A stretch of DNA of 22,828 nt from a virus: the IMG/VR virus record IMGVR_UViG_3300011115_000283, positions 1 through 22,828 of that record; one strand, written 5' to 3'. The notes under the pieces were generated by a model that worked only from the letters and a program-made list of their open reading frames with translations, had not been told where the DNA came from and searched no databases. The stretch's first letter is position 1. The number at the start of each line of letters is the position of its first letter. Shown here piece after piece: positions 1 through 18,374 of the stretch. Made by a program: the position numbers and the translations under genes.

Positions 1-807
1 AAAAATAGAGCAATCAGAAACTGCAAAAGTACCTGTTGGTGAAGCTGCAGGGTTGTAAACAGTATTACCAGTGTAATCTCCATATACGTATTCAACATCA
101 GGGCTAGGAGCACCTTCTAGAAGAATCGTGTCTGTCTGTGGAATGTTTAGGACATTCTTTGCAACAACATAATTTACCTTAGGTGTAATAACAGCACCCT
201 GAGCATCATACTCAGTAACAATGCCTTCAAGAATTTGAATGTAATCAGAACCAAAAGCCAATACTGTAGGCGCATAATCACCAGAGGTTGCGTCATGAAA
301 AAGTACTCCATTAAACTGCTCTACAATTGTATCGTCTGTAATAGTATTAGTAACAGGGTTATTTGCATCGTAATAGACAGTGATGTCATAATATCCATCT
401 AGACGAACCGCTCTTGAAGCGGCAATCACTACGCGGATATTGTTACCGTCTACACCACGGTGTTTAGCTGCAATAGTACACAGGGTACCACCACTATTAC
501 CTGTGAAAGTAACAGCTTTCTTTGCAACCTTCTTTGAAGAAACAGGGAAAATACGCTTTACGTAAAGCTCACTTCCACCATTCTTAAAGAACGAACCAAT
601 GCTAAAAGTAGCTGGGTATAGTGCGTTGTAGCCACCAAACTTCTGCGTAAAGTCATACCATGACGTTACTTTAGTAATCTGGTCTGAGCCACGCTCAAAT
701 GCTGCAATTACAGCACCTGCGGCGTTAGCCGTTGCAGCTAGATTTACTGGGGCTGCAGCCAGTGGAAGTTCATTAATGAACACTCCAGGACGATTATATG
801 TCGCCAT
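1..807 (-). CDS. Tail sheath protein, N-terminal part (runs off left edge)
   Basis: The 269 visible codons start at ATG 807, preceded by AAGGAG. The protein opens with MATYNRPGVFINELPL, the typical opening of contractile-tail sheath proteins (tail sheath family, as in T4 gp18-like proteins), followed by an Ala-rich stretch and a segment (about residues 38-85) containing SWYDFTQKFGG and FFKNGGSELYVKRIF, the usual sheath N-terminal domain pattern. The sheath forms the contractile outer tube around the tail tube. The conserved C-terminal domain lies beyond the window. It follows two small neck/tail-completion-like genes, as expected. It is the evidence that this phage has a contractile tail. The frame is open to base 1. 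The role is confident; full length is unknown. Confidence 0.88.
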   Translation of the reverse strand, partial: MATYNRPGVFINELPLAAAPVNLAATANAAGAVIAAFERGSDQITKVTSWYDFTQKFGGYNALYPATFSIGSFFKNGGSELYVKRIFPVSSKKVAKKAVTFTGNSGGTLCTIAAKHRGVDGNNIRVVIAASRAVRLDGYYDITVYYDANNPVTNTITDDTIVEQFNGVLFHDATSGDYAPTVLAFGSDYIQILEGIVTEYDAQGAVITPKVNYVVAKNVLNIPQTDTILLEGAPSPDVEYVYGDYTGNTVYNPAASPTGTFAVSDCSIF

Positions 808-851: not shown

Positions 852-1520
852 TTATTTCGTTATAGTAAACACATCAATATTATCCCAGCCCACAGAAGCA
901 CTTGTTCCTGTAGGAGGATTGACGGTAACTGTTTGCACCTTGTAAAGTTGACGGAATACACCCTGTACTACCTCGGATGAGACTCGTACAGAGATTGCGT
1001 TAACGAACAAGCGCTTTGCCTGCTCGGTTACGTCACGCTTGGCGACGTTCATGACATCTAGGCGTCTCATAGTAATAGTATTAGTGGTGGTATCACCAAC
1101 AGTAACACTTTTTTCTGGGATTTCTAGATAGCCAAATCTAAGTGGAAACTTCTGGGTCAGAAGTTGCGCCAATATTGCTCGGTCATGACGCGGATGACGA
1201 GAGTAAGTTGTAATCTGATAGTCAATATAAACTGGAATAGGTATATCAACCAAGAAGTCCTGGGTCTCTGTGTCAATTCCATCAGGAGTTAGGTAGTCAG
1301 GGTTAACCAAACCGCGCATTTCACGCTCACTATCGCGTTGAATATCTACCATATCAATAGTTATATAAGGGTAAGCCTGAGCAGTGATTTCTTGGTCTGG
1401 TTGGCCAAAGAACACCCGTACCTGGCGAGGAACATCCTGGCCGTCTGACTTTTGGTCAGCAACAACCATGCCCTGAAGCTTGTTACGAAGGGCTTCATCT
1501 TCAGAAAGAATAAAGGTCAT
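852..1520 (-). CDS. Putative tail terminator / neck completion protein
   Basis: 222 residues, ATG at 1520, overlapping the upstream gene by four bases (ATGA). I recognise no catalytic motif. The N-terminal part contains FFGQPDQEITAQAYPYITID, where 'YPYITI' followed by strands is common in tail terminator or completion proteins of contractile phages. The middle (about 100-150) is rich in beta strands and polar residues, and the C-terminus is a Val/Thr-rich strand region. It sits directly before the sheath gene and after a small gp10-like gene, where tail terminator proteins are often encoded. It would sit at the head-proximal end of the tail tube. The role is inferred from place and general appearance; a baseplate or other neck protein cannot be excluded. 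Confidence 0.6.
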   Translation of the reverse strand: MTFILSEDEALRNKLQGMVVADQKSDGQDVPRQVRVFFGQPDQEITAQAYPYITIDMVDIQRDSEREMRGLVNPDYLTPDGIDTETQDFLVDIPIPVYIDYQITTYSRHPRHDRAILAQLLTQKFPLRFGYLEIPEKSVTVGDTTTNTITMRRLDVMNVAKRDVTEQAKRLFVNAISVRVSSEVVQGVFRQLYKVQTVTVNPPTGTSASVGWDNIDVFTITK

Positions 1521-1822
1521 TTGCTACCTTTCTCTATTTTGGCGTTAAACAAAATAACGAATACTTTACCAAACTCAGCATTCATATTACCAAAACGGCG
1601 AAGAGTACCCTTGTTATCTCCCTGGTATTCTAAATCAAATACTTGACTACGGTAACTAGCGCTATCAATTTTGTATGCTTTATTACCCGGCTTTACAGTA
1701 AGAGAGCTAGCAATATTTGCTGGCCAGCCTTGAGTTTGGGTATAGATTCGCACCTTCTTAGTTATCTCTTTAACTAAGTCTTTTTTAGCTGCTTCGAATG
1801 CGGGCTTTAAATAGTCTAACAC
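1517..1822 (-). CDS. Small neck / head-tail joining protein (HK97 gp10-like appearance)
   Basis: 101 residues. The start is GTG at 1822, sharing its bases with the TAG stop of the gene before it (TAGTG), which implies translational coupling; the Shine-Dalgarno is weak. An N-terminal amphipathic helix (residues 1-27, Lys-rich) is followed by the pattern WPANIASSLTV, then VFDLEYQGDNKG and LRRFGN. That layout, with a helix, 'SL.V' strand and 'DLEYG' strand, resembles small tail-completion proteins of the HK97 gp10 type. It lies between a 65-residue gene and the probable tail terminator, where such a protein is expected. The assignment is by pattern and position only. Confidence 0.55.
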   Translation of the reverse strand: MLDYLKPAFEAAKKDLVKEITKKVRIYTQTQGWPANIASSLTVKPGNKAYKIDSASYRSQVFDLEYQGDNKGTLRRFGNMNAEFGKVFVILFNAKIEKGSK

Positions 1823-2077: not shown

Positions 2078-2116
2078 ACTATAAGGATAAAGAAAAACCC
2101 TGACGTTGTCAGGGTT
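2078..2116 (-). promoter_or_regulatory. Possible promoter region for the neck-sheath operon
   Basis: On the minus strand, downstream of the terminator hairpin, a TATAGT hexamer (2078-2083) could be a -10 box, but there is no convincing -35 box at 16-18 bases. Just after it lies a direct repeat, GGTTCC spaced ten bases apart (plus strand 2059-2074), which could be a binding site. A promoter is expected here because a terminator precedes it. The exact site is uncertain. Confidence 0.3.
2096..2116 (-). terminator. Rho-independent terminator after the basic-protein cassette
   Basis: A perfect inverted repeat: AACCCTGAC (2096-2104) and GTCAGGGTT (2108-2116) with a three-base loop. Read on the minus strand the stem is followed by TTTCTTTATCC, a usable U-rich tail. 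It lies 22 bases beyond the stop of the gene at 2138-2557, so it ends the transcript of the small basic proteins. Confidence 0.8.
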
Positions 2117-2137: not shown

Positions 2138-2557
2138 TTATCTAGTAGACTTCTTAGCCGGTGCTTTAACAGCAGGTTTAGAAACCATACCAGGATTAGG
2201 TCTAGTTGCTGTCTTTACAGGTGCTTTAACTGCAGGCTTAGAAACTACAGGCTTGGTTGTTGGTCTAGTAGTTACTCTATCTGGGTGCTGTGGACCATTA
2301 GGAGTAATTTTCTTAGTCTTAACAGTAGTGTCACCTTCATCAGGTCCTGGCTTCCTTTTAGTAGAGATACTACCCTTAGGTTCTGCGTGAACTGAATTAG
2401 GGTCATTAGGCTTATAATTATTTCTTTGACCATTTGGTAGTCTATCACTAGTAATTACTTTAGTAGCTGCACCCTTTTTCTTAGGAGTAGCGCCCTTTTT
2501 AGTCTCGCCTGCTACGCGCTTACGTGCGCCACCAGTTCTTGCATTTCTAATTGCCAT
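2138..2557 (-). CDS. Basic, low-complexity Lys/Pro/Ala-rich protein (histone H1-like tail)
   Basis: 139 residues, ATG at 2557 preceded by AAGGAAGAAATA. No folded domain is apparent. The N-terminus (1-35) is Lys/Arg/Gly-rich, with KKGATPKKKGAATK. The C-terminal 50 residues hold repeats of KPAVKAPVK and VSKPAVKAPAKKS, the style of histone H1 or HU-type tails that bind DNA or RNA without sequence preference. The repeat is visible in the DNA as two similar segments around 2141-2175 and 2205-2250. It is the last gene of the small basic-protein cassette, just before the terminator. Nucleic-acid binding is an inference from composition; a disordered virion protein is an alternative. Confidence 0.75.
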   Translation of the reverse strand: MAIRNARTGGARKRVAGETKKGATPKKKGAATKVITSDRLPNGQRNNYKPNDPNSVHAEPKGSISTKRKPGPDEGDTTVKTKKITPNGPQHPDRVTTRPTTKPVVSKPAVKAPVKTATRPNPGMVSKPAVKAPAKKSTR

Positions 2558-2567
2558 TATTTCTTCC

Positions 2568-2879
2568 TTACTTTTGTAACTTCAAAACTGCTACGTTGCT
2601 GCTAGCGCTTGAGATAGCGTACAACTGTAGACCTGTATCTAAATTGGTTAGCTGAAGGGACGCTCCAGCGGCAAGCTTATAACCATAAGCTGTTGAGGTA
2701 ACACCAGAACCACCTAGGTAAACTGTAGCTGTACCGTCTACGTTTTGGATAACCAAATCCATACCATTCCAGCTAGTCCCTTGAGTACCGCTTACTGGGT
2801 GAACAGTGTTTGTAAAAGAGTTTAATAGTACAGCAGTGCTGCTGTTAAGCGCGGTAAGCGCGTGGACTACAGACGACAT
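2568..2879 (-). CDS. Small beta-rich virion-type protein of unknown function
   Basis: 103 residues, ATG at 2879 coupled to the stop of the previous gene (TAATG). Unlike its neighbours it is not basic: it is rich in Ser, Thr, Val, Leu and Gly, with the pattern VIQNVDGTATVYLGGSGVT, then YGYKLAAGASLQLTN, then LYAISSASSNVAVLKLQ. This looks like a single beta-sandwich of the kind seen in small phage structural or decoration proteins ('VYLG', 'YG..L.AG', 'LYAI' strands). I recognise the pattern from phage proteins but cannot name a function. It may decorate the capsid or a fibre. It lies inside the basic-protein cassette between two Lys-rich genes. Confidence 0.7.
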   Translation of the reverse strand: MSSVVHALTALNSSTAVLLNSFTNTVHPVSGTQGTSWNGMDLVIQNVDGTATVYLGGSGVTSTAYGYKLAAGASLQLTNLDTGLQLYAISSASSNVAVLKLQK

Positions 2880-3094
2880 TACTTCTTCTTACCCTTAATA
2901 CGGGCTGCTAGAGCCTTATCCTTCTTGATGTCTTCCTTCTTGGAAGGCTTCTTAGCGTCCATCTTCTTGTCAGCAGCTTCAAACTTCTTCTTTTGTGCTG
3001 GAGTCATGCCCTTTTCAAGCTTCTTGTCTTGCTTTTCATCGGCTTTTGAGTTAATCCATGGTGGCATCTTCTTGCCAGATTTCTTTTTTTCCAT
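2879..3094 (-). CDS. Very Lys-rich small protein
   Basis: 71 residues, more than a third of them lysine, with clusters KKK and KK all along and Asp/Glu between them. ATG at 3094 shares its A with the stop of the previous gene (TAATG) and is preceded by AAAGGAAAG, a good Shine-Dalgarno. A central segment, MTPAQKKKFEAADKKMD, would form a charged helix. No domain is recognised. The composition suggests binding to nucleic acid or to an acidic protein surface. It belongs to the row of small basic proteins between the fibre and sheath genes. Function unknown. Confidence 0.7.
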   Translation of the reverse strand: MEKKKSGKKMPPWINSKADEKQDKKLEKGMTPAQKKKFEAADKKMDAKKPSKKEDIKKDKALAARIKGKKK

Positions 3095-3222
3095 TATTTC
3101 TTTCCTTTTGCTTTAGTCATTGAGTGTTTTGTACGAACTGTAAGGCTCTGCTTACGCTTCATAGCAGGGTTTTTTGAGGTCTTGCACGCTGGGCAGACTC
3201 CGCATGAACAGGCTTTAGCCAT
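3094..3222 (-). CDS. 42-residue Cys-cluster, basic microprotein
   Basis: Translated by eye from ATG 3222 to TAA 3094. The protein begins MAKACSCGVCPACKTSKN and continues with a Lys/Arg-rich tail ending in KAKGKK. Cysteines at residues 5, 7, 10 and 13 (CxCxxCxxC) can make a small metal site, probably zinc, joined to a basic tail. The stop overlaps the next start as TAATG, and its start overlaps the end of the 19-residue ORF by eight bases (ATGGCTAA). Start context: AAGAAGAAAACA upstream, a moderate Shine-Dalgarno. Support comes from tight packing, the Cys pattern and basic composition matching the neighbours. A nucleic-acid-binding mini zinc protein is a guess. Confidence 0.65.
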   Translation of the reverse strand: MAKACSCGVCPACKTSKNPAMKRKQSLTVRTKHSMTKAKGKK

Positions 3223-3274
3223 TGTTTTCTTCTTTCTTACCGCAACCGCAGTTGCCACATGGACAATCAGACAT
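3215..3274 (-). CDS. 19-residue cysteine-rich microprotein
   Basis: ATG at 3274, TAA ending at 3215. Sequence MSDCPCGNCGCGKKEENNG: four cysteines within residues 4-11 as CPCGNCGC. The start has a good Shine-Dalgarno (GGAG, seven bases before ATG) and overlaps the previous stop as TAATG; the end overlaps the next start by eight bases. These three signs make translation plausible in spite of the size. It resembles a metal-binding knuckle or a fragment of metallothionein-like sequence. It may be a real microprotein, or only a translational relay to the next gene, which also begins with a Cys cluster. Confidence 0.5.
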   Translation of the reverse strand: MSDCPCGNCGCGKKEENNG

Positions 3275-3426
3275 TATTTTACTCCGTAATTTGAAGAGGC
3301 ATTCTTAGCTTTTACCACTTTAGGCTTAGCAACCTTGCCCTTATTATGTGGTTTTATTGTAGCAGGTGCCTCAGCATTTTTTCTAGGTCTACTGTTTCTA
3401 CTTTTCTTAATTTTAATTTCAGCCAT
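3274..3426 (-). CDS. 50-residue basic protein
   Basis: Translated by eye from ATG 3426 to TAA 3274; both ends overlap neighbours as TAATG. Start is preceded by GGAAAAAAGAAATA. Sequence begins MAEIKIKKSRNSRPRKN and continues with KPHNKGKVAKPKVVKAK, so it is Lys/Arg-rich, almost without acidic residues, and probably disordered. No domain recognised. It fits the surrounding row of small basic proteins and is likely to bind nucleic acid or an acidic partner. It is too short for most gene finders. Confidence 0.65.
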   Translation of the reverse strand: MAEIKIKKSRNSRPRKNAEAPATIKPHNKGKVAKPKVVKAKNASSNYGVK

Positions 3427-3737
3427 TATTTCTTTTTTCCTTCGTTAGCTTTACGGATAGATGCAGCCTTCTTGCGTGCGTCCGCTTTAGATGATGCTCC
3501 CCAGGCCTGTAAGGACAGTAGGAGGCGTGTAGGCTCTCCGTTGGGTTTGTGCTCAGGTCCAGGGTTACCGGCCATTCTAGATAGGAATGCAGCCCTTCTA
3601 GGGTTGTTTCCTGACTTGACTGGGGCCTTCAAATTTGAGCCTGGATTCTCACGTTCGTAAGACTTACGGCCCTTTTCATTTAGGCCACCCTTTGGGTTCT
3701 TTCCCTCTTTACGAGACCATGCCGCTGATTTAGCCAT
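3426..3737 (-). CDS. Conserved small basic phage protein (AAWSRKEGKNPKGGLN family)
   Basis: 103 residues, ATG 3737 coupled by TAATG to the HNH gene, with AGGAAAG as Shine-Dalgarno. Motifs in order: SAAWSRKEGKNPKGGLNEKG (4-23), KSYERENPGSNLKAPVKSG, NPRRAAFLSRMAGNPGPE, then a helical WGASSKADARKKAASIRKAN tail. I recognise this arrangement as a conserved family of small proteins found in many phages, especially aquatic ones, with no established function; I believe it carries a DUF number but do not state one. Strongly basic. Conservation of Trp, Gly and Pro positions suggests a real fold rather than disorder. It may bind DNA. Confidence 0.75.
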   Translation of the reverse strand: MAKSAAWSRKEGKNPKGGLNEKGRKSYERENPGSNLKAPVKSGNNPRRAAFLSRMAGNPGPEHKPNGEPTRLLLSLQAWGASSKADARKKAASIRKANEGKKK

Positions 3738-4018
3738 TATTTCTTTCCTGCTCTCCGCTTATTTTCTTTAGCGGTATTCTTTCCATGCTTCATAGGCTGT
3801 AGGTTAGACTTACGGTCATCAGCATGTTTGTTGTTTTTGTGGTCAACGTCAGTTCCTCTAGGGAGCTTACCGTTCTTTTCTTCGTACTCGGCACGAGCCT
3901 TATTCTTGCTCGTAGTGTGCCATTTACCATCTTTGCCCTTAGTCTTATAGACATAGATAGGACGGCCTCCATTGGCCGCTGAGCCCTTATACGGGCCAAA
4001 TTTCTTAGTCTCTGCCAC
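3737..4018 (-). CDS. Small HNH-type endonuclease
   Basis: 93 residues. The start is GTG at 4018, overlapping the previous TAG stop (TAGTG), with GAGG eight bases upstream. The N-terminal half (about 1-50) has GGRPIYVYKTKGKDGKW, a strand-rich segment seen in HNH proteins that grip DNA. The HNH core is at 55-85: GTDVDHKNNKHADDRKSNLQ, with D59-H60, N72 and N81, followed by NTAKENKRR. These are the His and Asn positions of a metal-dependent beta-beta-alpha nuclease of the HNH_3 style. It would nick or cut DNA. It stands alone, 13 kb from the terminase, so it may be a homing-type endonuclease rather than a packaging helper. Confidence 0.8.
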   Translation of the reverse strand: MAETKKFGPYKGSAANGGRPIYVYKTKGKDGKWHTTSKNKARAEYEEKNGKLPRGTDVDHKNNKHADDRKSNLQPMKHGKNTAKENKRRAGKK

Positions 4019-4254
4019 TATCTGTGCCTCGCTGTCTTTTTAGCAATCTTCTTAGGTTGAGCCACAAACTGCTCACCCTTTTTGTTTCCTTTAGCCTTAG
4101 CTCTGTTAGTGGCTTTTTTCTCAGCAGGAGTCAGGTCTTCCCAGGCCTTCTTAGGAAGGTAGCGTTTTTTACCCTTAGACGGTTTTCCGTCTGAGGTTCC
4201 CCACTCTTCCTTAGTCCACTTGTCTAACGACCTTTGGGACTTTGCTTTAGCCAT
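4018..4254 (-). CDS. Conserved small basic phage protein (LDKWTKEEWGTSDGKPS family)
   Basis: 78 residues, ATG 4254 coupled by TAATG to the previous gene. Motifs: SLDKWTKEEWGTSDGKPS (9-26), KRYLPKKAWEDLTPAEK and FVAQPKKIAKKTARHR at the C-terminus. I recognise this order (W-x-T/K-E-W-G-T, then RYLP, then QPKKIA..T..HR) as a conserved family of small proteins frequent in aquatic phages and some bacteria, function not established. The family normally has about this length, so the gene looks complete. Strong positive charge. It shares the cassette with several other basic proteins and is probably co-translated with them. Confidence 0.75.
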   Translation of the reverse strand: MAKAKSQRSLDKWTKEEWGTSDGKPSKGKKRYLPKKAWEDLTPAEKKATNRAKAKGNKKGEQFVAQPKKIAKKTARHR

Positions 4255-4442
4255 TAGTTCTTGTAGCCTCCGCCAGCCTTCTTGTACTCAGCCGCTAGTA
4301 GTTGTGCCTTACGAGCAGACCACTCACCTGGGTCTCCGCCCTTAGAGCCAGCCTTAATTCTGTTAAAAATTGTTTTACGTAATCCAGGCTTAGTGTAGTT
4401 GCCAGCCTCGTTAACCTTGGACTTACTTTTTTTTGCTGCCAT
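4254..4442 (-). CDS. Conserved small basic phage protein (WSARKAQLLA family)
   Basis: 62 residues from ATG 4442. A longer reading from 4481 is open, but the 4442 start has AGAGGA at the right distance and the longer one has no Shine-Dalgarno. Motifs: NEAGNYTKPGLRKTIFNRIK, KAGSKGGDPGEWSARKAQLL and a KAGGGYKN end. The pattern 'YTKP.LR..IF..IKAG.KGG.PG.WSARKAQ' is one I recognise as a widespread small phage protein of unknown function. The C-terminal helix plus GGGY ending are characteristic. Overlaps the end of the preceding gene by twenty bases. Likely a structured nucleic-acid- or protein-binding module. Confidence 0.72.
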   Translation of the reverse strand: MAAKKSKSKVNEAGNYTKPGLRKTIFNRIKAGSKGGDPGEWSARKAQLLAAEYKKAGGGYKN

Positions 4443-4668
4443 TTTTAGTCCTCTTTTGTGGGTGCTTGTCATGCCAATCACGGGTTGCTTTAATACCCTG
4501 TTTTACGGTTTTAGAGCCAGCAACTTTTGTTAAGTCCATTTTATCGTATTTGCCCTTTTTAGTCCCTGTATGGTCAACTATAATGTCGCCCTTTTTACCA
4601 ATTCCTTTATCAGACTTCTTCTTAGTGACAACGTGGCCTATGCCATCTTTTGTACGAACCCTAGCCAT
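4423..4668 (-). CDS. Lys-rich small protein of unknown function
   Basis: 81 residues, ATG 4668 with AAGG upstream; its first eight bases overlap the end of the 39-residue gene. N-terminal half has strands around a glycine-rich stretch (GIGHVVTKKKSDKGIGKKGD, 9-28) and DIIVDHTGTKKGKYDKMDLT; the C-terminus is a helix TRDWHDKHPQKRTKNGSKKK. One-third basic residues. I do not recognise a domain with confidence. The mixture of beta segment and basic tail suggests a small fold with a nucleic-acid-binding tail. Ends within the next gene's start region. Confidence 0.7.
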   Translation of the reverse strand: MARVRTKDGIGHVVTKKKSDKGIGKKGDIIVDHTGTKKGKYDKMDLTKVAGSKTVKQGIKATRDWHDKHPQKRTKNGSKKK

Positions 4669-4780
4669 TGTTTACCTTCTTAACTAATTTCTTTTTTTTG
4701 GTGTGCTTTTCCCACTTTTTTGCCATTTCCGGCTTATTAGCGTACATCCATGCACGTTGGGCTTGAGATAAAAAAGGCAT
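4661..4780 (-). CDS. 39-residue conserved phage microprotein (SQAQRAWMYANKPE type)
   Basis: Translated by eye: ATG 4780 to TAG 4661. Sequence starts MPFLSQAQRAWMYANKPEM and continues AKKWEKHTKKKKLVKKVNNG. The motif S-x-A-Q-x-x-W-M-Y-A-N-K-P-E-M-A-x-x-W is one I recognise as very common in tiny proteins of many phages, so this is almost certainly translated, though its function is unknown. It is one base downstream of the previous stop, and its last eight bases overlap the next start (ATGGCTAG). First member of the basic cassette in transcription order. Shine-Dalgarno weak (GGTAAT), so coupling is likely. Confidence 0.78.
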   Translation of the reverse strand: MPFLSQAQRAWMYANKPEMAKKWEKHTKKKKLVKKVNNG

Positions 4781-4781
4781 A

Positions 4782-4997
4782 TTACCAGCTAGTTAACGCA
4801 GTGCGCTTCCAGGTATTGGTTGCAACACAAACATATAAGAATCCTGAAGCGTAGGCTACTTGGCCTGCTACTCCGGTAGAGGTAGCGGTTGTGGGCACTG
4901 TTACCCAAGGACCAACCTTAGTATCAAGATAATCTAGGGCGGTGTTTAGGGTTGTACCCCAAGCGGTTTGTCCTACTGTAGGTTTAACAAGTGCCAT
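4782..4997 (-). CDS. Small virion-type protein with LYVCVATNTWKR module
   Basis: 71 residues, ATG 4997 with CGGAGAG upstream. It opens MALVKPTVGQTAWGTTLNTALDYL, a helix typical of phage fibre-associated proteins, followed by Pro/Thr linker VTVPTTATSTGVAGQ and then AYASGFLYVCVATNTWKRTALTSW. That last part is a widespread phage module: a short beta hairpin with Tyr-Val-Cys-Val and Trp-Lys-Arg, found at the ends of many fibre proteins. It may be a fibre cap or attached accessory. Stop codon TAA lies one base before the next start. It separates the connector-like gene from the basic cassette. Confidence 0.7.
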   Translation of the reverse strand: MALVKPTVGQTAWGTTLNTALDYLDTKVGPWVTVPTTATSTGVAGQVAYASGFLYVCVATNTWKRTALTSW

Positions 4998-4999
4998 TA

Positions 5000-5602
5000 T
5001 TACTCTCCGTAACTGTCTGAGCCGTATGCACCATTGCCATAACCAATTGTTCTAGGGTCTGGCTTTGATAGAGATGCATAGGTTTGGAATTGTGGGTCAT
5101 TAACAAGTTCATCTGGGTTTAGTTGGTTGCAGTCAATTGTAAGAACTGCGTAGTTGTAGCCAAATGAACCACGAGGCAAAACACGCGTTGGAACAAATAC
5201 TTCGCCTCTATATATAATTCTATCTTTAATATGGTTGTTTGAATCGGTAATTAAAGAAGGTAAAAGACGCTGGGCATCTCCAATATTGATAACCAATCTC
5301 AAGGTGTCGGTAACGTAGAAACCACGTTGGTTCATAATATTAGTACCACGAACAAACTGTGCCATAACTGCAGGCATCTTAAATGGCAGCATCCATCGTC
5401 TACCTTTGTCAGGCTCAGAAGATGAAACATCGTAGATAGGGTCTACAATACTGGTGTAGTTTCCTTCAAGGTAGTACTCTTGCCATCTAAACCAGTCGAC
5501 TTCAACACCAACAGTGCCACCAAGGTCTTCGGCAATACCTTCATACATAGACTTACTTTCGTAGTCTAAGTTGAATCTCCCTTGTAGTTTAGCGCCTCTC
5601 AT
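5000..5602 (-). CDS. Probable connector/neck virion protein
   Basis: 200 residues from ATG 5602, chosen because it overlaps the previous stop as TAATG like many junctions here; an in-frame start at 5611 would add three residues. Sequence is rich in aromatic and charged residues: VEVDWFRWQEYYLEGNYTSI (35-54), PDKGRRWMLPFKMPAVMAQF, then beta segments GEVFVPTRVLPRGSFGYNYAVLTIDC and a conserved-looking NPDELVNDPQF. The pattern resembles head-closure or neck proteins that follow head-tail connectors in myophage genomes. I do not recognise a named family. Its place between fibre genes and small basic genes is odd for a neck protein. Role inferred. Confidence 0.55.
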   Translation of the reverse strand: MRGAKLQGRFNLDYESKSMYEGIAEDLGGTVGVEVDWFRWQEYYLEGNYTSIVDPIYDVSSSEPDKGRRWMLPFKMPAVMAQFVRGTNIMNQRGFYVTDTLRLVINIGDAQRLLPSLITDSNNHIKDRIIYRGEVFVPTRVLPRGSFGYNYAVLTIDCNQLNPDELVNDPQFQTYASLSKPDPRTIGYGNGAYGSDSYGE

Positions 5603-6786
5603 TAAGCCCACGCACTAGAGTTGCTATCCATAGGAATAACTTTACAGAAAGAACCTACAGCAACAGACGCTGCGGTAACGCTTGGTGCTCCAGAATAGGA
5701 AGCTTCTATCCAAAAAGTTCCAGGAACAACGACTTTAAAAAAGCCTTTAGCTTTATAGTATCCACAAAAATAACCATTTTGGTCTGTTCCCTCTGAACGG
5801 GTAAGGTTTTTAGCAGTAAGAGTTCCTGAAGTAGCGGAGTATCTTAAGGCTGGAGTATTTGATATTGCAGTAAAAGCCTGAGCATCAAATACATAGGATG
5901 CGGATGTAGTGCGTTTGTATAATTCCTCAGAAAAACTAACTAGGCTTACAGTAGCGCCACCTAGTATTCCAAAAGTCATAGAAATGTTGTTAGCTCCTGA
6001 GCTAGACTTTTTAAACAAAATTAAAGTTTCAAACTCATATAGACCAGTATCCAGTGTAATTGATGTGCCTGCAAATGCCGGAGAAGGACTAGCTAAATAA
6101 CCAATGCTATAGTCAGCAGTAGACAACGAAACATAATACGGAGTAGAAACAATTGCCGGTTTGCTACTGACGTTCGCATTAGTTACAAAGAAGTTACCAT
6201 TATATTCAACAGCACCTGATGCAGGCGAGGAAACTAATGTACCGGAAGTTAGTTTAAGTGGGGGGTTAGTACCTGCGGAACCTGCAATAGTCAACTTGGT
6301 GAGTGTTCCTACCGAAGTTAAACTTGAAGAAGTTGAAGTACTGGTAAGCATTGCTCCACCGCTAGCCGGGATAGTCGTACCGTTTACAGTAGTAACGTTA
6401 GGCAATGAAGTGATGCCAGTTGGTAGGGAAGTAGCACCAGTAGTTACTAAAGTTGAACTAGAAGGAATAGTAGTTCCATTAATAGTTCCAATAGTCATAT
6501 TACCTAGCGTATTACTAACTAGGATTCCATATAAACCAGCTTCAATATTCTTAAGACGAGCAGCTAGACCATCATTGGAATACCAGTTAGTTATAGAGGT
6601 ACCAAAAGTACCAGTTCCCCAAGTACTAGTAGTAACACCAATACCGCCAGCACCAGTTGTAAACCCGCCTAATTGGCGTTCAATTTCAGTAATTTCTGTA
6701 TATGCGGTATTAACATCCTCAGCAATAACCTTATCAATGTTATTTCGCTTAAATGTAAACGACTTAATGCTTGTTGGATAAGCCAT
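5602..6786 (-). CDS. Fibre protein with Ser/Thr-rich shaft and C-terminal beta head
   Basis: 394 residues, ATG 6786 with TAGGAG upstream. The N-terminus (MAYPTSIKSFTFKRNNIDKV, then EDVNTAYTEITEIERQLGG) matches a common attachment domain of phage fibres. Residues about 45-220 are a Gly/Ser/Thr shaft with repeated TTVNGTTIPS and VGTLTKLTI patterns. From about 225 the sequence turns into a compact beta domain (YYVSLSTADYSIGYLASP, GLYEFETLILFKKSSSG) of C1q/TNF-like appearance, likely to bind the host surface, and ends in ASYSGAPSVTAASVAVGSFC. Shares the shaft style with the next two fibres. Receptor binding is inferred. Confidence 0.75.
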   Translation of the reverse strand: MAYPTSIKSFTFKRNNIDKVIAEDVNTAYTEITEIERQLGGFTTGAGGIGVTTSTWGTGTFGTSITNWYSNDGLAARLKNIEAGLYGILVSNTLGNMTIGTINGTTIPSSSTLVTTGATSLPTGITSLPNVTTVNGTTIPASGGAMLTSTSTSSSLTSVGTLTKLTIAGSAGTNPPLKLTSGTLVSSPASGAVEYNGNFFVTNANVSSKPAIVSTPYYVSLSTADYSIGYLASPSPAFAGTSITLDTGLYEFETLILFKKSSSGANNISMTFGILGGATVSLVSFSEELYKRTTSASYVFDAQAFTAISNTPALRYSATSGTLTAKNLTRSEGTDQNGYFCGYYKAKGFFKVVVPGTFWIEASYSGAPSVTAASVAVGSFCKVIPMDSNSSAWA

Positions 6787-12068: not shown

Positions 12069-13208
12069 TTAGTTGGTGTAAACCTTGTTGATAGCCTGGT
12101 CTGTAATGATACCTAGACCCCAGATGGCGTACCATGCTAGTGCGTGCTCACGACCGAAGTCTAGAACACCACCATCACGAAGCTCAACTGGAAGTGCAAT
12201 GGCGTGACCGAATGCGTTGTCACCAATCATGATTGATTCGTAGACATCAGCAGTGTTACCAGTTGCAGCAGATAGGTAACCCTTTTCAGCAGTGTAATCA
12301 GCTGATAGTGGGTTTCCACCTGAACCTGGGTTGGTGTTAGCCTTTACAGGGTAAGTGTACTGGTCAGCCAAAGCGCCAACTAGGCCAGTAGTAGTGTAAC
12401 CAGCCTGGTTTGCAGCCAACTTCTTCACCTGAGTGGTCTCGATGAATACGACGTCATATAGACGACCGATTTCACCTAGCATGAAGTTACCTGGAGCAGC
12501 GTACTTGGTTACTTCGATGAACTCTGGGTTCGAGCGAAGGTCACGAGACTGCTTAGGGTGGATGAACTGGACGTAAGTCTCACCAATTCTTGGGATGTTC
12601 TTAGACGCAAGCACAAGTGCTGAGTCCTTGATAGCACCAGTGGTCAACTTGTGGTTACCATCTAGGTCACCAATTGCGGTACCAACGGTACCTTCTGCAT
12701 AGGTGTTGAAGGTGGTAGATGAAGTTAGACCTGAACGGTCGTAACCGAAGGTTGCTGAGGTAGCAGCCGACAGTGTGTCACGAGCCTGTACGTCTAGGTA
12801 CTGTGCCATGTGGCGACCAAGCAAACGTGAAGCAGAAGCCATGATGTCGTCGAACGAAGCGTTCAGTAGCAGTTCTGAAACTGCAACTGCATAGCCGTGC
12901 TCAGCAACGGTGATAGCAATCTGCTCTGCGGTTAGAGCGTTAGTTGTCATACGGACACCTTCAGTCAGTGGAGTTGCGTCCACTGTGAAGTTCTTGTAAC
13001 GAAGGAAGTTAACACGAAGACCAGGTGAAACACCTAGTTCTGTCTTCTTAACTGCAAACTGCTCAAAGCGAAGAATAGGCATCGCCTGGAACAGAATTTC
13101 CTTCGACCAGATGGTTTGGATAGCCTGCGAAAGCTGACTATTTGAACCTGAATATGCGGTAGGCGCGCCAGCTAAGGCAGCGGTACCGGTAACAGCAGAA
13201 CCTGCCAT
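12069..13208 (-). CDS. Major capsid protein, N4-gp56-type
   Basis: 379 residues, ATG 13208 with AAAGGAG upstream. The order of features fits the N4 gp56 family of HK97-fold capsid proteins: N-terminal arm (1-30), AMPILRFEQFAVKK, VNFLRYKNFTVDATPLTEG (67-84), EQIAITVAEHGYAVAVSELL (95-114), RLLGRHMAQYLDVQARDTL, IGETYVQFIHPKQSRDLRSN (208-227) and MLGEIGRLYDVVFIETTQ (243-260). Length is in the normal range. It forms the icosahedral shell, built on the scaffold encoded just upstream. The coding sequence shows strong synonymous choice (many GTA, ACT and GGT codons) as expected for a highly expressed gene. Confidence 0.9.
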   Translation of the reverse strand: MAGSAVTGTAALAGAPTAYSGSNSQLSQAIQTIWSKEILFQAMPILRFEQFAVKKTELGVSPGLRVNFLRYKNFTVDATPLTEGVRMTTNALTAEQIAITVAEHGYAVAVSELLLNASFDDIMASASRLLGRHMAQYLDVQARDTLSAATSATFGYDRSGLTSSTTFNTYAEGTVGTAIGDLDGNHKLTTGAIKDSALVLASKNIPRIGETYVQFIHPKQSRDLRSNPEFIEVTKYAAPGNFMLGEIGRLYDVVFIETTQVKKLAANQAGYTTTGLVGALADQYTYPVKANTNPGSGGNPLSADYTAEKGYLSAATGNTADVYESIMIGDNAFGHAIALPVELRDGGVLDFGREHALAWYAIWGLGIITDQAINKVYTN

Positions 13209-13309: not shown

Positions 13310-14065
13310 TTATCCAAAGAGCCCTTGTCCACTGTTTTTACCTGAGCCAAGAAGCTTGGCTCTATTCTTCGCATAGTCTGCCATTGACATGTTATTAATG
13401 TCGTTAGGTGAATACGTACGTGAGTCCGAGTCGTTGTCGAGGGGTCCGGAGGCCGGGCTCGTAATACGAGTTCCAGCCATTTCCTTGCGGCTCTGCTGTG
13501 CAACTTGCGCAACAGAATCGAAGATTTTCGCAGAGCGTTCTTTGAGACCAAGGATGCTCTGCTCGATTTCATCCTTAGAATTACCAGAAATTAGGTCAAC
13601 TAGTTCTGGAATAATACTGTCACGTTCTACTTCAAGACGCTGTTGGCGATAAGCCGATAGCTCCTGAAACTCACGTTCACGTTCAAGAAGGGCAAAGGCT
13701 CTTTCACGCTCTTGGCGTTCTGAATCTAACTTTGTTGACCATTCTTGTTCTTTTTTAGCAAGTAGGTCACGAACTTCAAGTTCTGATTCTTCTTGCTTCT
13801 TACGTTCAGCCGCACGCTCAGACTCACGAGTCTGACGTTTTGCTGCACGGTCAGCCTCTAGGGCTGCACGTTCGTCACGTTCCTTCTTAAGAAACGCAAG
13901 CTCCTCCTGCAGTTTTTCTACCTGTGGGTATAGCTTTGCCTTTTCCTGAGCACGAGCCTTCGCAATATCGTCGACTGTGAACTGGTTTTGCAATGCTACC
14001 TCTTCAGTAAAATCTGCATTAGTGGTTAATTCAGTAGTATCTACTACTTCTGTATTTTCATCCAT
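13310..14065 (-). CDS. Capsid scaffold protein
   Basis: 251 residues, ATG 14065 with AAAAGAG upstream. Almost no folded core is visible. An acidic N-terminus (MDENTEVVDTTELTT) is followed by a long charged coiled coil (about 35-150: KLQEELAFLKKERDERAALE, ERAFALLEREREFQELSAYR), then a helical segment, IIPELVDLISGNSKDEIEQS, and a Gly/Ser/Asn C-terminus with MSMADYAKNRAKLLG. This composition and its place between portal and capsid genes are those of phage scaffolding proteins, which guide shell assembly and then leave or are cleaved. No protease motif seen. A frame-shifted 95-residue reading over the same bases is a shadow. Confidence 0.82.
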   Translation of the reverse strand: MDENTEVVDTTELTTNADFTEEVALQNQFTVDDIAKARAQEKAKLYPQVEKLQEELAFLKKERDERAALEADRAAKRQTRESERAAERKKQEESELEVRDLLAKKEQEWSTKLDSERQERERAFALLEREREFQELSAYRQQRLEVERDSIIPELVDLISGNSKDEIEQSILGLKERSAKIFDSVAQVAQQSRKEMAGTRITSPASGPLDNDSDSRTYSPNDINNMSMADYAKNRAKLLGSGKNSGQGLFG

Positions 14066-16715: not shown

Positions 16716-18374
16716 TTAATAAAAAGATGAATTAGAGACTTCAACCTCTGGCATAACTAGTGACTGGGTTAGAGAACACGCAATTGCCAAAGAGTCTACG
16801 AAGTCATCGTGAGCATACGATTCTGCCGGAGCTTCAACTATGAAGTTTGGTCCTTTGTATTTTATTTCAGCATCTGTCATTTGCTGTATAAAACGTTTAT
16901 GTACTCTTAGTCTACGTGTTTTTGCATGATTTGGGTAGCTAAGTGACTTCCTTTGAATTAAAGCTTGTAGATGTTTAAAGCGCTTTGATTGCTCTGATTG
17001 AGAGGAGGTTAATGGAAATACATCAGAACGCCCTAATAGTAACTTAAGACGTTGGGCTACTGCGTCACCGACACCATTTGCATCAACTCCAATAGCAAGT
17101 ACATCGTAGTTAGATAAGAAGTTAACTATTTGGAAGTATTGTTCTTCCCAGTCATCGCCTTGTATTTCCAGCCAGTTGAGGACTCGATGGTCAAAATAGC
17201 CAAACTCATCGGGACGGTCCCAGTCAACCCAGACAACTGTAACAACAGTGGAGTCCATTTTTCTAGCAGGGTCGATTCCAACAACAACAGGGGTCTTGTG
17301 CCATACTTTGACGAGCTCTTGAGACGTGTCACCCAGTTCATCCAGTAGTGAAGTTGTAACAAACATGCCTCGTTCAAGTAGCCATTTGCAGTTGTACGAC
17401 ATTTGGAACTCATCAGAGTCTTCTCCAATTCTTAGCATCTCTTGCTTAATGAACGTTTTATAGTTTGTGTTGACTTTAGAGACATCCCGCCAGTCCCACT
17501 GAAAGTGGCTCTGTCTACGTCCTCGTTCAGTCTGTAGTCTTTTGTTTAGTTGAATAGCTTTATAGAAGTTATTTTTACTAGTAGTTGGTGTGCCTGTCTT
17601 TACCATAATACCAGCATAATAAGCCAGCATAGGGGCAATAGATTTAGATACTACAAAATCATCGGCTTCCTGGCACTCATCAATAACAATGAGATGAAAG
17701 GACTTAGACTCAATCTTTGCACGGGGGTTAGCAGTCATCATTGTTATGCTACTGCCTGAATTCTTAAGGCGAACCATTCTAGTTACACCACCAATTTTAG
17801 CAGCTTGGTCGTCAATCTCAGGGTCGCCAAGAAGCTCTTGAGCATGTTCAGAGGTTAGGCGGCTAACTGTACGGCCAAACAAAGTTTCTGCCTGTCCTTC
17901 TGTAGGGGCAAACAATCCCACCCAAATACCATTTTTATATTTATCTAAAAGTTCTGGATATAAAACAGAAAGCTTAGGGAGCAGTACCATTAGTGTAGCT
18001 ACTGTGTTAGCAATAGTTTCAGATTTTCCTGACTGACGAGAAGCTAGTGCAGTGATTTCGTCACCTTTACCAATCAATACTGCTTCAATAATCCTTTTAG
18101 CCAAGGGCTGCTGATAGGCATGAAGGGGATGGCCAACTAGGCCTTCCATAAAAAGCATAATCTTGTCAATTAATCGGTCAATGAAGTCTTGAGAAAAGAC
18201 ATCCTCTTCCTCGTCGTCTTCTTCCTCTTCCTCTTCAAACTCAGAATTTCTGTAATACTTTGGGTCAATTTCCTCGAACTGAGGTGTCTCTTCCTCTGGT
18301 TCTAAATCCCAGGCAGAAGTGTCAACCTTTTCATAGTTATTAAACTCTTCATACTCTTCTTCTTCGGAATTCAT
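16716..18374 (-). CDS. terL: Terminase large subunit
   Basis: 552 residues, ATG 18374 (TAATG with the gene before). The N-terminus (1-60) is extremely acidic, with runs of Glu and Asp. ATPase: Walker A ASRQSGKSETI (111-121), Walker B SFHLIVIDECQEADD (225-239; Asp232-Glu233), coupling motif GTPTTSKNNF (261-270). Nuclease (RNase H-like): VVVGIDPARKMDST (363-375, Asp368), VLAIGVDANGVGDA (425-438, Asp430) and AHDDFVDSLAIAC (521-533, Asp524/527). All packaging-motor and cleavage motifs are intact. It translocates DNA into the capsid through the portal and cuts the concatemer. No small terminase subunit is obvious; it may be one of the unrecognised genes to the right. The acidic N-terminus is unusually long. 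Confidence 0.95.
   Translation of the reverse strand: MNSEEEEYEEFNNYEKVDTSAWDLEPEEETPQFEEIDPKYYRNSEFEEEEEEDDEEEDVFSQDFIDRLIDKIMLFMEGLVGHPLHAYQQPLAKRIIEAVLIGKGDEITALASRQSGKSETIANTVATLMVLLPKLSVLYPELLDKYKNGIWVGLFAPTEGQAETLFGRTVSRLTSEHAQELLGDPEIDDQAAKIGGVTRMVRLKNSGSSITMMTANPRAKIESKSFHLIVIDECQEADDFVVSKSIAPMLAYYAGIMVKTGTPTTSKNNFYKAIQLNKRLQTERGRRQSHFQWDWRDVSKVNTNYKTFIKQEMLRIGEDSDEFQMSYNCKWLLERGMFVTTSLLDELGDTSQELVKVWHKTPVVVGIDPARKMDSTVVTVVWVDWDRPDEFGYFDHRVLNWLEIQGDDWEEQYFQIVNFLSNYDVLAIGVDANGVGDAVAQRLKLLLGRSDVFPLTSSQSEQSKRFKHLQALIQRKSLSYPNHAKTRRLRVHKRFIQQMTDAEIKYKGPNFIVEAPAESYAHDDFVDSLAIACSLTQSLVMPEVEVSNSSFY

Follow-up and report, generated by a model that had tools for sequence, protein, structure and literature searches.

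What role is played by twelve very small, mostly basic proteins whose genes are crowded among the structural genes of a contractile-tailed phage of freshwater type? The question is raised by positions 2138-4780 of IMG/VR record IMGVR_UViG_3300011115_000283, a phage genome fragment that is complete in the database at 22,828 bases and was analysed at this full length (the window). A preliminary description of the window, made from its letters, had highlighted this gene set, here called the cassette, and had proposed that its products could be packaged with DNA, condense it or act against host nucleic acids. We tentatively favour, with a probability of roughly 40%, a modular operon located among the tail genes, whose small cationic products would mostly enter the particle and be nucleic-acid-binding, with the packaged genome or, once ejected, host nucleic acid as the target.

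The twelve small open reading frames (ORFs; g01 to g12 in the table) occupy the minus strand, and every stop lies where the preliminary description had placed it. Ten of the predicted proteins are strongly basic with isoelectric points (pI) of 10.1-11.3 and net charges of +9 to +25, and the two exceptions named there, g11 and the Cys microprotein g08, were likewise found. The start of g09 is most likely the ATG at position 3222 and not the GTG at 3258. Within the window, 91% of the small ORFs in the cassette have a pI above 10 compared to 22% elsewhere (p=4e-4).

Overlaps of the types TAATG, TAGTG and ATGGCTA had been reported for most of the genes, and 10 of the 11 junctions do overlap, through TAATG or TAGTG, an 8-nt ATGGCTA(G/A) or, at g02/g03 and differing from the reported types, 20 nt. 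The sole non-overlapping junction is g11/g12 (2568/2557) with a gap of 10 nt. A hairpin with a T-run was also detected after the cassette in 43 of the 66 relatives having a gap of at least 30 nt at this site, compared with 0.5% of shuffled gaps and one internal junction out of 561. The overlaps and the positionally conserved hairpin thus give the proposed single translational unit with its own terminator good support at the sequence level. The described position between fibre and sheath genes was right as to the two sides, although small genes separate the cassette from the large fibre and sheath genes.

Searches of IMG/VR gave 234 loci on metagenomic contigs, some being repeats of one contig, and 107 of them carry homologues of both boundary genes of the slot, which in the window lie at 5000-5611 and 852-1520. 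The interval between the boundary genes spans 1.2-5.4 kb and contains cassette homologues among the matches listed. After removal of near-identical intervals 78 remained, window included, in which a simple, mechanical gene caller predicted 856 ORFs, these counts taking in a few flanking tail genes; 63% of the ORFs have a pI above 10 and 84% a pI above 9. Among the small proteins of a 94-kb relative, those with a pI above 10 number 12 of 13 in the slot versus 13 of 90 elsewhere (p=4e-8).

Conservation as a group in relatives had been suggested as a check, and the same slot indeed holds most of these genes. The ratio of non-synonymous to synonymous substitution rates (dN/dS; median Nei-Gojobori values, which are approximate because dS is close to saturation in many pairs) is well under 1 in the recurrent families, with 0.08-0.3 across g01-g06, showing purifying selection, so that neutrality with a dN/dS near 1 fails. 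Less well supported is g11, whose value comes from a single usable pair. Chance or spurious ORFs are ruled out by the homologues, the dN/dS values and the conserved terminator. Taking the homologues in the slot, the selection estimates, the concentration of basic proteins and the terminator together, the cassette is, judged from its sequence and that of its relatives, a conserved, protein-coding and separately terminated unit.

The content of the slot is variable. Its ORFs fall into 138 families, about 25 of them recurrent and 82 singletons; the recurrent ones mostly comprise proteins of 40-100 amino acids (aa) with 22-35% Lys+Arg, and many are absent from the window. Family F0, to which g10 belongs, has 101 members in the intervals, with two copies in many phages, often adjacent. 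In 17 relatives the cassette ends with a further HNH-like protein containing Cys pairs (family F15), which is not present in the window. The variable content, with 66 distinct arrangements in 78 intervals, rules out a single fixed system, and free shuffling of the members is ruled out by a relative family order that is 92% consistent. The predicted set of the window is thus a variable subset taken from about 25 recurrent families.

The high proportion of singletons and the number of arrangements would also be expected if the slot were an accessory-gene hot spot, in which independent small genes of unrelated functions share basicity without a common purpose. Such a hot spot could furthermore account for the finding that the level of identity to the window in g01, g03 and g06 does not follow the level seen in the flanking genes; across relatives the median identity is 85% for g03 and g04, 85% for the capsid protein, 64% for the flanking genes and 44% for the sheath. 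However, this explanation seems unlikely, since the predominance of pI values above 9 in the slot is set against 14% of small ORFs with a pI above 10 elsewhere in one relative, the relative order is consistent, and the same families co-recur, and fuse with each other, in unrelated phages.

Table. Coordinates and properties of the cassette genes and of other features in the window
Feature	Position	Strand	Product or description	Family or relatives	dN/dS
g01	4661..4780	-	39 aa, pI 10.4	F7, 31/78 intervals; weak phrog_1375 match	0.29
g02	4423..4668	-	81 aa, pI 10.4	F3, 45/78 intervals	0.28
g03	4254..4442	-	62 aa, pI 10.3; N-terminal half of DUF5872-like protein	F8, phrog_17747	0.08
g04	4018..4254	-	78 aa, pI 10.5; C-terminal half of DUF5872-like protein	F6, phrog_14910	0.10
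g05	3737..4018	-	93 aa, pI 10.2; HNH_3 domain	F4, 42/78 intervals	0.18
g06	3426..3737	-	103 aa, pI 10.9; DUF6321	F5, phrog_4689	0.12
g07	3274..3426	-	50 aa, pI 11.0	F22, 7 relatives; weaker support	0.53
g08	3215..3274	-	19-aa Cys-rich microprotein MSDCPCGNCGCGKKEENNG	tblastn matches in 35 loci	
g09	3094..3222	-	42 aa, pI 10.4; CxCxxCPxC motif and basic tail	F14	0.39
g10	2879..3094	-	71 aa, pI 10.1, 38% Lys+Arg	F0, 76/78 intervals	0.46
g11	2568..2879	-	103 aa, pI 6.7; neutral, beta-type	F26, 4 members	0.05 (one usable pair)
g12	2138..2557	-	139 aa, pI 11.3; Lys/Pro/Thr-rich	clusters with no relative	
Terminator hairpin closing the cassette	2096..2116	-	9-bp stem, 3-nt loop, T-rich tail; directly 3' of last stop		
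Fibre-side flank	4782..4997	-	small protein related to end of phage tail proteins	phrog_17312, 1e-12	
Upstream boundary gene of slot	5000..5611	-	conserved	LuckySocke homologue, 1.4e-16	
Downstream boundary gene of slot	852..1520	-	conserved; beside sheath	LuckySocke homologue, 6e-22	
Further sheath-side genes	1822-2019, 1517-1822		between cassette and sheath		
Sheath	1-807	-	window order terminates here		
Major capsid protein	12069-13208	-			
Gene in usual scaffold position	13310-14065	-			
Terminase	16716-18374	-			
Stem-loop	10124-10152	+	29 nt, 13-bp stem, 3-nt loop, TATATCTTT tail; near start of 9770-10186 gene		

The preliminary description had recognised three or four small phage families of unknown function among the cassette proteins. 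This holds for g03, g04 and g06, and g05 additionally matches HNH families. The g06 protein is a full-length stand-alone member of DUF6321 (PF19846; phrog_4689, phrog_727, phrog_3477), covering positions 1-72 of the 72-position profile with 2.4e-24 and 86.2 bits at a curated cut-off of 28.5, and its AlphaFold2 model shows a confident small helical fold (predicted local distance difference test score, pLDDT, 85.7). No paper on DUF6321 was found in a literature search, and a sequence search of the PDB with DUF6321 and g04 gave no match. The attempt to place DUF6321 in a solved fold yielded nothing useful. Among uncultured phages in BFVD (A0A6J5N5R9 and A0A6J5R4H4), DUF6321 structurally matches parts of one protein labelled Ferritin/DPS domain protein (679 aa) and of another labelled AAA domain protein (1143 aa); Dps proteins bind DNA, a hint at what DUF6321 may do.

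The g05 protein reaches 26.8 bits against HNH_3 (PF13392; cut-off 24.8), and the residues H60, N72 and N81, assigned to the HNH motif by inspection, are invariant in all 42 family members. Thus, g05 is a predicted HNH protein with conserved catalytic-type residues; in isolated phages no tblastn match to it was obtained at 1e-5. Among the ten members scanned there was no Pfam or NCBIfam match to histone-like, nucleoid-associated or DVNP families, and the NCBIfam scan returned no match of any kind for these members. No likeness between g01 and the SKKQQRFFG (DUF3008-like) motif in cyanophage proteins is claimed here, the hidden Markov model (HMM) of the g01 family having given no significant match.

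Of 31 genomes, 30 have the g03 family immediately before that of g04, where 3.2 would be expected, and Pelagibacter phage EXVC031P as well as Synechococcus phage S-CRES1 encode the two as a single protein. Fused forms of 132-178 aa are also encoded on bacterial contigs (Odyssella, Pyrinomonadaceae, Chlamydiia, Saccharibacteria). Three of these bacterial relatives scored 21.6, 25.2 and 27.5 bits against DUF5872 (PF19197), i.e. they reach the cut-off of 27.5 at most, and neither g03 nor g04 by itself matches the model. Hence, the predicted products of g03 and g04 are two halves of one protein that can be termed DUF5872-like only, which in the cassette is divided over two overlapping genes.

At least the Odyssella contig looks chromosomal, with a length of 722 kb and, by inspection, cytochrome oxidase-type and methyltransferase-type genes near the fused protein. 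On the Pyrinomonadaceae contig (L256:3152-4055) the fused protein is encoded directly downstream of a 114-aa protein amid genes that look stress-related by inspection, a context that could indicate a cellular function. The literature search on DUF5872 returned one genome paper, that of the algal giant virus CpV-BQ1, in which the family is listed (PMC12085832).

HMMs of the cassette families were also run against isolated phages. Since matches of lysine-rich proteins are prone to inflation, the comparison with cyanophage proteins included shuffled sequences as a control, and these gave no hits. Unrelated isolates have cassette families among their structural or lysis genes, and podoviruses and pelagiphages again carry those of g03, g04 and g06 in their late regions. 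In the Zobellviridae phage MEP401 (Methylophilales) the g06, g03 and g04 families are consecutive immediately before terL, and in Pelagibacter phage HTVC033P the same three are grouped next to an amidase gene. Roseophage CRP-9, HMO-2011 and S-CRES1 encode the g03 and g04 families together with cassette family F12, near the terminase genes in CRP-9 and near lysis genes in S-CRES1.

DUF6321 matched 483 phage records. In T4-like cyanophages it is located at or near the C-terminal end of proteins of 165-994 aa, whereas in the cassette it is a separate protein of 103 aa. The cyanophage genes adjoin terminase and tail genes or, in S-SSM7, sit in another region, and in RN05-S, S-SSM7 and S-SCSM1_29 the domain is accompanied by cassette family F19.

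The DUF6321 genes of S-SCSM1 and RN05-S adjoin tail fibre genes, and in all relatives of the window the slot lies between the fibre and the sheath-side genes. The cassette proteins might thus serve the tail or fibres as accessories, for instance by helping to assemble the products of the adjoining fibre genes. A Lys+Arg content of 24-38% is, however, unusual for tail proteins. Taking furthermore into account that the families are found near the terminase in MEP401 and CRP-9, near lysis genes in S-CRES1 and HTVC033P and in phages of differing tail types, such a role appears very unlikely.

Packaging, as proposed in the preliminary description, can be assessed from DUF6321 homologues in cyanophages. 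The protein gp137 of S-CREM2 (108049-109521), which contains DUF6321 (Pfam 3.5e-10), was detected by mass spectrometry (MS) in CsCl-purified virions with four unique peptides and 4.1% coverage, as was its neighbour gp136 with eight peptides (PMC10665884 Table 3); the pI of gp136 is 10.0. Virions of S-SCSM1 were likewise analysed by MS (PMC9602691), and S-SCSM1_29 is annotated as virion protein in its record. We take this label to stand for MS detection, since it is given to capsid, tail and neck proteins but not to terminase, prefoldin or sigma factor. The 165-aa DUF6321 protein of S-SZBM1, on the other hand, was not among the 30 detected virion proteins (PMC9146016 Table 1). Weighing these three phages, the data suggest that a DUF6321-bearing protein is placed in the particle in two of them, in S-SCSM1 by the annotation label as read; the packaging proposal thus has indirect support from S-CREM2 and S-SCSM1 and none from S-SZBM1.

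Two further proteins are encoded near the DUF6321 gene of S-SZBM1. S-SZBM1_194 (L238:1502-3625) is a basic protein of 707 aa with an S-adenosylmethionine lyase domain near its C-terminus (Pfam 6.8e-8), and S-SZBM1_195 (L238:1237-1500) is a small neutral protein that is abundant in virions, with an exponentially modified protein abundance index (emPAI) of 2.66 (PMC9146016). By analogy, the neutral beta-type g11 may play a part similar to that of S-SZBM1_195.

The missing detection in S-SZBM1 would also fit unpackaged host-takeover factors, which would be made in the infected cell and act by coating or disrupting its nucleoid or ribosomes, their diversity reflecting host adaptation and host defences. 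The strong charge of the proteins, the varying content inside a fixed slot, the conserved catalytic-type residues of g05 and the lack of the cassette in Streptomyces relatives are compatible with this idea. It is nevertheless doubtful, as the genes lie amid structural genes and not in the early region in all lineages examined, and two cyanophages have DUF6321 proteins reported from virions.

Small basic proteins encoded with structural genes are known from other phages, such as the internal head proteins IPI-IPIII of T4 and other packaged and ejected proteins. The cassette proteins resemble IPI-IPIII in size, basicity, structural-gene setting and the proposed packaging with DNA, but no sequence relation was seen, and the cassette is a large co-translated, variable array; among the genes of the window a prohead protease was not recognised. 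A further parallel is offered by basic DNA-associated virion proteins of algal giant viruses such as DVNP, itself detected in virions; these too are small with a pI above 10 and have a proposed genome-condensing or charge-neutralising role (PMC11953307, PMC7019647). The cassette shares these features, but without a Pfam match to them, and it comprises many different short proteins where the algal viruses have one or few. Sections of PMC3037559 describe a hypervariable region between the terminase and sheath genes of T4-like cyanophages. The likeness to the cassette lies in variable genes beside terminase and sheath, with DUF6321 genes located there; in those sections the region is not presented as a basic-protein set.

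Under our preferred reading of a packaged cationic protein operon, the genes would be expressed late alongside the structural genes, as their location suggests, and most of the small cationic proteins would be incorporated into the particle, where they would bind the packaged genome, or host nucleic acid after ejection. Shielding or compaction of the genome is a guess by analogy with the basic virion proteins of algal viruses, and the turnover of members may reflect host or environment. One copy of every cassette protein amounts to a median of about +97 charges in total. A genome of ~94 kb has about 190,000 phosphates, and its full neutralisation would take some 2,000 copies per protein; the set could therefore neutralise at most part of the genome charge. 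Both DNA condensation and action against host nucleic acids, as envisaged in the preliminary description, would be conceivable.

Several points weigh against this reading, among them the S-SZBM1 result. The peptides of S-CREM2 gp137 need not derive from its DUF6321 part at such a coverage, and the packaging of the window phage's own small proteins is a prediction from homologues; DNA or RNA binding is likewise deduced from charge and the HNH member. The genes g07 (dN/dS 0.53), g10 (0.46) and g12 are weakly conserved, g12 being the least supported of the cassette with four tblastn matches and no clustered relative. A structure search with g06 against the PDB gave no convincing match (best the VPS4B MIT domain, VIA Z 3.1), and the fold search with g04 gave none with a Z of 2 or more. 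Furthermore, syntenic Streptomyces phages keep the boundary genes without the cassette, having tailspike or fibre genes there instead, and DUF6321 is absent from their whole genomes. Because these phages lack it, the cassette is not needed for particle architecture.

The minus-strand gene order of the window runs from terminase through portal, the 13310-14065 gene, major capsid protein, fibre genes, cassette and small tail-region genes to the sheath. The closest isolates by capsid protein are the Streptomyces phages LuckySocke, Alone3 and BRock (~60% identity), so the host is probably an actinobacterium. Searches for RNA families and tRNAs in the window gave none.

In a more far-reaching and quite unlikely scenario, the slot could encode a phage chromatin kit with exchangeable parts: from a pool common to unrelated aquatic phages, several small cationic proteins would be co-packaged, set the packing of the genome and be injected to act on host nucleic acids. 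The present analysis joins several widespread unknown families of aquatic phages into one guild of small, basic proteins encoded among structural genes, co-occurring and sometimes fused, and gives a testable common role to families so far annotated singly as hypothetical. As trypsin cuts lysine-rich proteins into very short peptides, standard proteomics may have missed a class of virion proteins.

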